Shown piece by piece: positions 29,436 to 33,341 of a DNA stretch of 33,341 nt (position 1 is the first letter of the stretch; every line of letters starts with the position of its first letter). The notes below the pieces were generated by a model. The model did no database searches. It was not told where the DNA came from and worked only from the letters and a program-made list of their open reading frames with translations. The translations under genes and the position numbers were made by a program. This stretch comes from Holophagales bacterium (GTDB taxonomy: Bacteria > Acidobacteriota > Thermoanaerobaculia > Multivoradales > Multivoraceae), in NCBI GenBank assembly GCA_009837085.1, contig VXUF01000116.1, positions 1 through 33,341 of the forward strand, in the 5' to 3' direction.

Positions 29436-29518
29436 GGTTCTTCTCCGGTGTAGGGAGGCCGTCTCCGGGCAGGGATGGAACAAGCGTATCCGGCTGCTTT
29501 GATACCGTGCCTCCCGCG

Positions 29519-31303
29519 ATGAGCCGGCTCGCGACCATTGCCTCGCGTCCGCTCGCTCGCCGCCCGGTTGCAGGCGCTCTGGTCGGCGCGTTCCTGCTCG
29601 GCGTTTCCTGCGCGGGGCCCGAGGCGGTACGAGAAGCTGCTTCGGGACAGTCGTCCTGGGGTCTCGGCGGTACGGCGCCGGCGGCTGAGGGCGCACACGG
29701 CATGGTCGTCAGCGGCCACGGCCTCGCCTCCGACGTCGGCGCCGCGGTTCTGGAACAGGGCGGAAACGCTATCGACGCCGCCGTAGCCGTCGGCTTCGCG
29801 CTCGCCGCGGTCCTGCCCGCCGCCGGCAACATCGGCGGCGGCGGGTTTCTGGTCTATCGGCCGAACGACGGCGAAGTCCGTGCGCTGGACTACCGCGAGA
29901 AGGCGCCGGGTGCGGCGACCCGCGACATGTTCCTGGACGATGAAGGCAAGGTCGCGGAAAGCGCGGTGATCGGCCACCTCGCGGCCGGAGTGCCGGGTTC
30001 GGTGGCGGGTCTCTGGGAGATGCACCGCGCGTACGGATCCCTCCCGTGGAGCGACCTGGTCGCACCGGCGGTCGAGTTGGCCCGGAGCCACGAGATCGAC
30101 GAGCCGCGATCGCGGAGTCTGGAGTCGGCCGCGCCACGCCTCAACCGGTTCCCGGCCAGCGCGATGCAGTTCCTGGTCGACGGCGAGGCGCCGCCGCCGG
30201 GCGCGATGCTGGAACAGCCGGAGCTCGCGGCCACGCTTCAGACCATCGCGGACCAGGGTCCGGACGGCTTCTATCGCGGCCGCGTGGCTGACCTGATCGT
30301 CGCCGAGATGGAGCGGGGCGGGGGACTCATCTCGCACCAGGACCTCGAGGACTACGCGTCGGTGTGGCGCGAACCGGTCGAGGTCGGCTATCGCGGACAC
30401 ACGATCTACTCGATGCCGCCGGTTTCCTCCGGCGGCCTGACCCTGGGCCTGATCCTCAACATCCTCGAGGGCTGGGATCCCCTACCCCCGTTCGGCAGCG
30501 CCGACCTGATTCACCTGGAGGCCGAAGCCATGCGGCTCGCGTTCCGGGACCGGAACACCCTGCTCGGCGACCCGGACTTCGTCGACGTACCGCGCGGGCA
30601 GTTCGAGTCGCAGGACTACGCCGACGGGCTGCGGGCCCGGATCGATCCCGAGAGAGCGCGGCCGCTGCCGCCGATCGAGGTCGCGCCGCCCGCGGAGAGC
30701 ACCGAGACGACCCACTACTCCGTGGTCGACCGCTGGGGCAACGCGGCGTCGGTCACGACGACGATCAACAGCGGCTTCGGCAACGCCGTCACCGTCACCG
30801 GCGCCGGTTTCCTGCTGAACAACGAGATGGACGACTTCGCCGCCTCGCCGGGTCAGCCGAACCAGTTCGGGCTGGTCGAGGGCGAGAACAACGCCATCGT
30901 CCCGGGCAAGCGGATGTTGTCGTCCATGACCCCGAGCATTGTGCTCGACCTCGAGGGCGAACTGATGATGGTCGTCGGCACGCCCGGCGGCCCGACGATC
31001 ATCACCACCGTCTACCACGTGATCTCGAACGTCATCGACCACGGAATGGGGCTGCGGCATGCGGTCGAGAGTCCGCGGGTGCATCACCAGGCGTGGCCGG
31101 ACCGGGTGTTCTACGAGGAAGGCGGTCTTGCCGCCGAGACGCTCGAGGATCTCGCGGCGAGGGGCCACGAGCTCGTCGAGCGCGGCCTGAGCGGGGACGT
31201 GTCCGCGGTCCTGGTAGAGGGGTCGAGCCTGCTTGGCGTGGCGGATCCGCGCCGGGGCGGCGACGTCAGCGCACCAAGAGGAGACGCGCCCGCGGGCGGG
31301 TAG
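29519..31303 (+). CDS. ggt: Gamma-glutamyltransferase
   Basis: AAVLEQGGNAIDAAVAVGFALAAVLPAAGNIGGGGF; catalytic-Thr region ETTHYSVVDRWGNAASVTTTIN; FLLNNEMDDFAASPGQPN; PGKRMLSSMTPSIV. Alternative GTG start at 29507. Confidence 0.92.
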   Translation: MSRLATIASRPLARRPVAGALVGAFLLGVSCAGPEAVREAASGQSSWGLGGTAPAAEGAHGMVVSGHGLASDVGAAVLEQGGNAIDAAVAVGFALAAVLPAAGNIGGGGFLVYRPNDGEVRALDYREKAPGAATRDMFLDDEGKVAESAVIGHLAAGVPGSVAGLWEMHRAYGSLPWSDLVAPAVELARSHEIDEPRSRSLESAAPRLNRFPASAMQFLVDGEAPPPGAMLEQPELAATLQTIADQGPDGFYRGRVADLIVAEMERGGGLISHQDLEDYASVWREPVEVGYRGHTIYSMPPVSSGGLTLGLILNILEGWDPLPPFGSADLIHLEAEAMRLAFRDRNTLLGDPDFVDVPRGQFESQDYADGLRARIDPERARPLPPIEVAPPAESTETTHYSVVDRWGNAASVTTTINSGFGNAVTVTGAGFLLNNEMDDFAASPGQPNQFGLVEGENNAIVPGKRMLSSMTPSIVLDLEGELMMVVGTPGGPTIITTVYHVISNVIDHGMGLRHAVESPRVHHQAWPDRVFYEEGGLAAETLEDLAARGHELVERGLSGDVSAVLVEGSSLLGVADPRRGGDVSAPRGDAPAGG

Positions 31304-31313
31304 CGGGCCGCGA

Positions 31314-33341
31314 ATGAACGGCCGGCGAATCTTCGCCGCGGTGACAGTAGGTCACCTCGGCATCGACATCTTCAACAGCATGGGGCCGGTGCTGCTGGCC
31401 TTCCTCCAGGCGCCGCTCGGTCTCAGCGCGGCCCAGATCGGCCTCGCGGTGGGACTGTTCCAGGTTCTGGCCGGTACCACGCAGCCGGCCTTCGGCTGGT
31501 TGGTCGACCGGATCGGCAGCCGTTTCCTGGGCCCGTTCAGCGTCGCCTTCAACTTCGCCTGCATGGGCCTGGCCGTCGCAGCCGCCGCCGCGACGCAGCG
31601 ATTCGTCCTGTTTCTCATTCCGTTCGCGTTGGCCGCGGTTGCTTCGGGCGCCTTTCATCCGCTGGGGGTGATGCACTCCAGTACGGTGAACCTGGCCCGC
31701 TCGGCCACGTTCACTGCCATCTTCTTCTTCTGCGGTCAGCTCGGGCTGACGACCGGGCCGGTCCTGGCGGGACTGGCTCTCGATCGGGCGGGGTTGAACG
31801 GGATCTACTGGCTCCTGCTCCTCGCGGCGCCCGTGCCGCTGTTCATGGCCTTCGCGATGGGGCCGCGACGGGTTCACCCGGCGCCCGCGACGTCGCAGGC
31901 GAGCGAGGATCGGACCGGCGCCGCCGATGTACGGGCTGGCCGCCGGCGACCCGTGCGTGGCGGCGTCATCGCCCTCCTCGGCCTGGTCTTCGCCAGCCGC
32001 TCCTGGGCCATGTTCGGAACGATGGCGTTCCTGCCCCTCCTGCTGAGTCAGAGGGGATACAGCTCCGTGGCTCAGGGGTCCGCCAGCGCGCTGTTCCTGC
32101 TGGGAGGCGCCGTGACCGCGGTCTTCGCGGGCGCCTGGGCCGATCGTTGGGGTCGCCGGCCGGTCGTCTTCCTGACCACGCTGCTCGGTGCCCTGCTGCT
32201 GGGCGTGCTGCCCGGATCCGGGGGCTGGATCTTCGCCGTCGTACTGCCCTGCGGAGCGCTGCTGGGAGCAGCGCACTCGATCCTGATCGTCATGGCTCAG
32301 GAGTTGCTGCCGTGGCGTCGGGGTCTGGCTTCGGGGACGGCGCTCGGATTCCTGTTCGCGACGGGCGGGATCGCGACCTGGGGTATCGGAGGGCTTGCGG
32401 ATCGCTTCGAACTCGCGTCGGTGTTGCAGGCCGGCGCCGTAGTCGGCCTCGTGTCGGCCTTCGCTTCGCTGCTTCTGCCGAAGCAGGAGCCGACCCGTCT
32501 GGCGGCCGCGCCGGCGGTAACGGCGGTGCTGGTCGCGGCCGTCGTCGGGCTGACCGTGTTGTCTCCGAGCCCCGCCTCGGCGGGTCTGAACGGCGAGATC
32601 AACGGCCAGGTGCGCGACGCGGCCACCGACGCCCCCCTGCCGGGAGCCGAGATCAGGATCACTGGCGATCAATTGCACAGCACCCAGATCGTTCGCGCCG
32701 GTCGCGGCGGCAGCTTCCGGGCGCCCGGTCTGCCGCCGGGCGACTACTACGTCGAGGCGACGATGGACGGCTACGCGACCTCCGTCGTCGAGAACCTGAT
32801 CCTTGTTGTGGGCGGCGTGCTGCGGGTCGACTTTCACATGAGGGCCGGCAGCGCGTCGGCGCTCGACCTCGTCTCCTCGCCCTTGCTCGACGTTGTCACC
32901 GGCAGCGACGGGAACGTGCTCGCAGGTGACGACCTCCGGCTGCTGCCGGGCGCGGTGGCGGCGCTCAACCTGGACCTGGCGTCCGGCCTCGACGCGCTGG
33001 ACCCGGACGTCGCGGTCAACGGCTGGCCGCCCGGCTTCGTCGTCTACCGGATCGACGGACAGGAGAGCGCCCTTCGCGAACCGGGATCGGCCGCCATCGA
33101 TCCTCGCTGGGTGGATCAGGTGCGAGTCTGGACGATGGAACTGGCGGCGACGATGGCCGGGCCCCACATCGACCTGATCACGCGCTCAGGAGGGACCGAC
33201 TGGCGGGTGAACGGCGGCTGGTCGACGGTCGAGCCGCTCGACAACGGCGATCGGCGACCCCAAAGCCAGGAAGCTGGCCGAAAAAAACCCGGCCGGGGCC
33301 TGGGCCCGGGCTCCGCTCTGGCGGTACCATCGATCCGCCAT
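31314..33341 (+). CDS. MFS transporter fused in frame to carboxypeptidase-regulatory-like and TonB-plug-like segments (open to window end)
   Basis: ATG 31314, 676 codons without stop (hence absent from the ORF track). MFS N-part (VGHLGIDIFNSMGPVLLAFLQ..., GAWADRWGRRPVVFLTTL); then signal-peptide-like TAVLVAAVVGLTVLSPSPASAG, GEINGQVRDAATDAPLPGAEIRITG...GGSFRAPGLPPGDYYVEATMDGYAT, then VVYRIDGQE...IDPRWVDQVRVWTMELAATMAGPHIDLITRSGGTDW. Confidence 0.75.
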   Translation, partial: MNGRRIFAAVTVGHLGIDIFNSMGPVLLAFLQAPLGLSAAQIGLAVGLFQVLAGTTQPAFGWLVDRIGSRFLGPFSVAFNFACMGLAVAAAAATQRFVLFLIPFALAAVASGAFHPLGVMHSSTVNLARSATFTAIFFFCGQLGLTTGPVLAGLALDRAGLNGIYWLLLLAAPVPLFMAFAMGPRRVHPAPATSQASEDRTGAADVRAGRRRPVRGGVIALLGLVFASRSWAMFGTMAFLPLLLSQRGYSSVAQGSASALFLLGGAVTAVFAGAWADRWGRRPVVFLTTLLGALLLGVLPGSGGWIFAVVLPCGALLGAAHSILIVMAQELLPWRRGLASGTALGFLFATGGIATWGIGGLADRFELASVLQAGAVVGLVSAFASLLLPKQEPTRLAAAPAVTAVLVAAVVGLTVLSPSPASAGLNGEINGQVRDAATDAPLPGAEIRITGDQLHSTQIVRAGRGGSFRAPGLPPGDYYVEATMDGYATSVVENLILVVGGVLRVDFHMRAGSASALDLVSSPLLDVVTGSDGNVLAGDDLRLLPGAVAALNLDLASGLDALDPDVAVNGWPPGFVVYRIDGQESALREPGSAAIDPRWVDQVRVWTMELAATMAGPHIDLITRSGGTDWRVNGGWSTVEPLDNGDRRPQSQEAGRKKPGRGLGPGSALAVPSIRH
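33281..33310 (-). terminator. Possible rho-independent terminator for a minus-strand gene entering from the right
   Basis: Minus strand: CCCGGGCCCAGGCCCCGGCCGGG followed by TTTTTTT; about 7-bp GC stem with one bulge. Confidence 0.45.

Follow-up and report, generated by a model that had tools for sequence, protein, structure and literature searches.

A putative polyprotein joining an MFS transporter to a TonB-type outer-membrane receptor in one genus of Acidobacteriota

By reading a 33,341-nucleotide stretch of a Holophagales draft genome (hereafter the window), we identified a gene that most probably encodes a polyprotein, with a probability that we put at about 80%. Its product consists of a 12-transmembrane (TM) major facilitator superfamily (MFS) transporter, an internal signal peptide and a complete CarboxypepD_reg/TonB-type outer-membrane receptor; the cleavage of the polyprotein, the location of its products and their joint function are predicted from sequence. 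The two halves share one frame, with no stop between them, in 21/21 species genomes of the genus, and are separate neighbors in three other genera of the family.

Results

The window corresponds to bases 1–33341 of a 46,429-base scaffold in a draft genome of 164 contigs. The frame 31314–33341 is open end to end, with no stop in the ORF reading of the window, as the initial annotation had stated (Table 1). Being intact in 21/21 congeners, the frame goes far beyond what chance would give. That annotation also recognized a 12-TM-type MFS, a signal-peptide-like hydrophobic segment and a carboxypeptidase-regulatory-like fold, all three of which were recovered by our analysis. Assignment of the first half to the MFS is based on a significant PF07690 match and on 12 TM segments by hydropathy: averaged over 21 orthologues, residues 15–388 form 12 peaks, and a 13th peak, the strongest of the protein, lies at 398–416. 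AlphaFold2 models built from a shallow alignment (pLDDT 42 for residues 1–558 and 30 for the mature receptor) were unusable and do not confirm the 12 TM segments. Sequence searches of the PDB returned weak matches only, the best being carboxypeptidase D for the N-terminal domain, and none for the MFS; a search of plasmids gave no match.

Table 1. Features of the fusion gene and its surroundings, in window coordinates.
Feature	Position	Strand	Evidence
Gamma-glutamyltranspeptidase gene, on the strand of the fusion gene and ending 10 nt before it	29507..31303	+	PF01019, 538.7 bits
MFS transporter half, residues 1–388	31314..32477	+	PF07690, 101.1 bits (cut-off 33.4); 12 hydropathy peaks
Linker/n-region of the internal signal peptide, residues 389–404 (PKQEPTRLAAAPAVTA), positively charged	32478..32525	+	Third-position-biased substitutions; dN/dS
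Internal signal-peptide core, 13th hydrophobic segment, residues 398–416	32505..32561	+	Hydropathy maximum 2.23
In-frame GTG, codon 405, judged an ordinary Val codon	32526..32528	+	GTC in 2/21 species; no Shine-Dalgarno
Predicted signal peptidase I site A-S-A / G, residues 421–423	32574..32582	+	Substitution pattern, 21 genomes
CarboxypepD_reg domain, residues 429–509	32598..32840	+	PF13620, 61.2 bits (cut-off 32.3)
Diverged plug of TonB-receptor type with the first portion of the receptor, extending past the window	32874..33254	+	hhalign
Contig-tip artefact, outside the gene, ~87 nt	about 33255..33341	.	Repeat past the gap; match to C37

The initial annotation saw the frame run off the right edge of the window, and the gene does continue there, while the last ~87 nt of the window do not belong to it. 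A 10-N scaffold gap begins at base 33342; past it, the assembly repeats 33230–33254 and then runs colinear with the relatives, and the tip has a 46-nt match to another contig (C37:15668–15713). For these reasons we regard 33255–33341 as a tip artefact. The real gene of this genome continues on the far side of the gap as far as scaffold position 35373 (C87:35373), where it closes with ...RLQF-stop, so that the full gene holds two 10-N gaps, one at the window edge and a second further in.

A TonB-plug-like region had been proposed downstream of the CarboxypepD_reg domain. The Pfam Plug model gave no match, but a comparison of profiles did align the region: compared by hhalign with CarboxypepD_reg TonB receptors of these bacteria, the profile of the mature receptor (residues 1–278) scored a probability of 99.7% (E 8e-27), over the CarboxypepD_reg domain, the plug and the first strands of ordinary TonB receptors. 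The TonB receptor barrel (PF00593) was detected at E<=0.01 in 9/15 members, the first member not being among the matches, and reached 37.5 bits in L054 (cut-off 27). Complete relatives without a frame disruption end in ...LRLQF, a C-terminal aromatic beta-signal that also closes the gene of this genome. These sequence features mark the second half as a complete outer-membrane receptor of TonB type, with a predicted beta-barrel and a C-terminal Phe.

The strongest alternative, although an unlikely one, is that one frame gives two products: translation of the receptor would also begin independently within the frame, at GTG 32526 or a codon close to it, and the fusion would be a by-product of stop-codon loss. 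This GTG had been suggested as the original start of a separate receptor, and codon 405 is indeed GTG in 18 and ATG in one of the 21 species; in the remaining two, however, it is GTC. A conserved internal start or Shine-Dalgarno sequence was found in none of the fused genomes (21 species), in contrast to the free-standing receptors of the genus, 11/11 of which carry a Shine-Dalgarno sequence of at least four matching bases, mostly six or more. Initiation at GTG 32526 would in addition leave the signal peptide without positive charge. The sequence upstream of the GTG also evolves as protein: in the 16 codons tested (389–404), 46 of 72 parsimony changes fall at third positions (p about 1e-7), and dN/dS over residues 389–401 is 0.24. 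Judged by this substitution pattern, the linker is coding sequence that would be translated with both halves as one protein. Since no stop follows the MFS, every ribosome that finishes it would enter the receptor, and the fusion protein would be made whether or not an internal start were used. We therefore do not retain GTG 32526 as a receptor start.

The receptor's former signal peptide persists in the fusion as the 13th hydrophobic segment, ending in AxA / G or Q. Signal peptidase I recognizes the pattern A/V - anything - A, with A and V both accepted at –3. Across the 21 orthologues the sequence of the signal-peptide core drifts and its hydrophobicity is kept. Position –1, before Gly/Gln424, is Ala in 21/21 with zero changes; position –3 is Ala or Val, with one change (A to V) on the tree; and position –2 has taken ten different residues in 9 changes, including Trp, Tyr, His and Arg. 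This pattern matches the specificity of signal peptidase I and indicates that a predicted cleavage site is under selection. It bears on a second alternative, in which the fusion stays whole, either as an inner-membrane transporter with a periplasmic receptor domain, as the initial annotation had considered, or as a bridge between both membranes. The uninterrupted frame would suit such a protein. However, an uncut protein would have no reason to keep an AxA site with the exact pattern of signal peptidase I, which argues for cleavage, and the receptor retains its TonB-type barrel and C-terminal Phe. A bridge would have to cross the periplasm with the roughly 200 folded residues between TM13 and the barrel, which seem too few for that distance. 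With a complete outer-membrane receptor behind a selected signal-peptidase site, we consider an uncut fusion very unlikely and a cleaved polyprotein the better reading.

The fusion is a property of the whole genus, many members of which come from sponges. Over the part of the gene in the window, the fused congeners show 75–96% protein identity, and complete fused proteins are mostly 1306–1324 aa long (usual range about 1,310–1,325 aa). The gene of L050 is cut by a contig end. The named GTDB records hold 18 fused loci, all from metagenome-assembled genomes, which apparently represent the same species genomes as the 21 and were counted once. This MFS is present as one copy in each of the 21 genomes (E <= 1e-30), which leaves no separate copy as a backup. 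Among 396 sampled Acidobacteriota, no further fusion of this MFS turned up; in G053 and G474, long open frames near MFS relatives resembled fusions and proved to be separate or stand-alone genes.

These data also address two further alternatives. That the fused gene is a pseudogene on its way out is highly improbable: G009 does have a frame disruption in the receptor half (L053), where the usual sequence is lost ~70% into the receptor and the frame runs to 1419 aa, and this may be real or an assembly error, but the gene is intact in the remaining complete relatives, and dN/dS of 0.12–0.24 in both halves, outside a variable loop and the signal peptide, indicates purifying selection. An assembly or sequencing artefact in this metagenome-assembled genome (a lost stop or an indel), to which the artefactual contig tip close by might point, can be dismissed, because every congener shares the junction, 20 other genomes in all, including the nearly closed G019 (1 contig) and G010 (3 contigs).

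The three sister genera of the same family, each represented by one genome, have the MFS and the receptor as separate, adjacent genes. In G022, the TTG start of the receptor overlaps the MFS stop (TTGA) and is preceded by GAGGAGGTG; in G021, the receptor starts about 20 bases past the MFS stop, with AGGAGG before it; and in G023, it starts about 65 bases downstream of the MFS. A convergent DNA ligase D gene (ligD) adjoins the locus in the fused genus, G022 and G023, which identifies these as one locus. The nearest MFS in family f18, from the same class, stands without an adjacent receptor. Because the sister genera keep separate adjacent genes, one fusion event at the base of the genus accounts for the distribution, as reconstructed from these genomes. 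The stop-loss fusion raised by the initial annotation thus stands as an evolutionary event and falls as a sequencing error.

The gamma-glutamyltranspeptidase gene lies directly upstream of the fusion in G017 and G014 as well, and the two genes probably form an operon. This neighbor hints, weakly, at an amino-acid or peptide substrate. In the sister genera, a gene that by eye resembles glutamate-cysteine ligase is found a few genes away, in place of gamma-glutamyltranspeptidase, and a gamma-glutamyl theme common to fused and sister loci is possible.

In 8/21 genomes, the first ~32 nt of the fusion gene are repeated upstream at a spacing of exactly 59 nt (G006, G009, G011, G013, G015, G016, G017 and G018; loci L010, L026, L019, L021, L027, L015, L018 and L009, respectively). 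There is one upstream copy, except for two in G017 and a second, weaker one in G009; in the window, the start motif is single, at 31314. Each repeat is a mini-ORF of 19–20 aa (MNGRRIFAAVT...), with its stop codon overlapping the start that follows. A search for the pattern gave no occurrence outside this locus. The repeats are possibly a leader or a translation-coupling device.

Discussion

A model consistent with our data is that ribosomes translating the MFS run on into the receptor, a step that follows directly from the missing stop. The MFS would enter the inner membrane, its C-terminus facing the cytoplasm; the former receptor signal peptide would follow as TM13, and Sec would carry the remainder into the periplasm. 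Signal peptidase I would then cut after Ala423, as the selected AxA site suggests, so that the MFS would retain an additional TM stub, and the freed receptor would be handed to BAM and reach the outer membrane. The predicted outcome is that an outer-membrane receptor and its inner-membrane partner are made in a coupled manner, at a ratio of about 1:1. If cleavage were slow or regulated, the nascent receptor would be temporarily tethered, and transporter and receptor would be positioned opposite each other across the envelope; we think this variant quite improbable.

The closest parallel is FbcH of Bradyrhizobium japonicum, the cytochrome b / c1 precursor, in which a multi-TM protein is made together with an exported partner and signal peptidase cuts an internal signal peptide. 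As in FbcH, one frame here joins two membrane proteins, encoded by separate genes in relatives of the fused genus, and contains an internal signal peptide with a conserved cleavage motif, which in our case is read from the sequence. Unlike FbcH, whose two products form one complex and both remain in the inner membrane, the fusion consists of a transporter and a receptor, and one of its products would be an outer-membrane beta-barrel. The receptor half also resembles the Oar-like CarboxypepD_reg TonB-dependent receptors that are common in these genomes, with which it shares the CarboxypepD_reg domain, a plug-like region, the beta-barrel and the C-terminal Phe. It differs from them in lacking its own start or Shine-Dalgarno sequence, in being the C-terminal part of an MFS polyprotein and in having a plug that has diverged beyond the reach of the Pfam model. 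Adjacent MFS and TonB receptor pairs, which serve uptake through both membranes, are a further point of comparison: just this arrangement is present in the sister genera, with the two genes overlapping or closely spaced, whereas the fused genus has a covalent fusion in place of translational coupling. Our literature search found no paper on an MFS/TonB-receptor fusion.

A polyprotein that serves two membranes is unusual. If the predicted cleavage is true, this would be a natural polyprotein with products in different membranes of the bacterial envelope, the cytochrome b/c1 precedent being confined to the inner membrane, and it would test whether an inner-membrane protein with many TM segments can deliver an outer-membrane protein as its tail. 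The fusion illustrates how overlapping genes can become a single gene with both proteins apparently still working. It also ties a receptor to one transporter, a partnership of a kind that is usually hard to assign.
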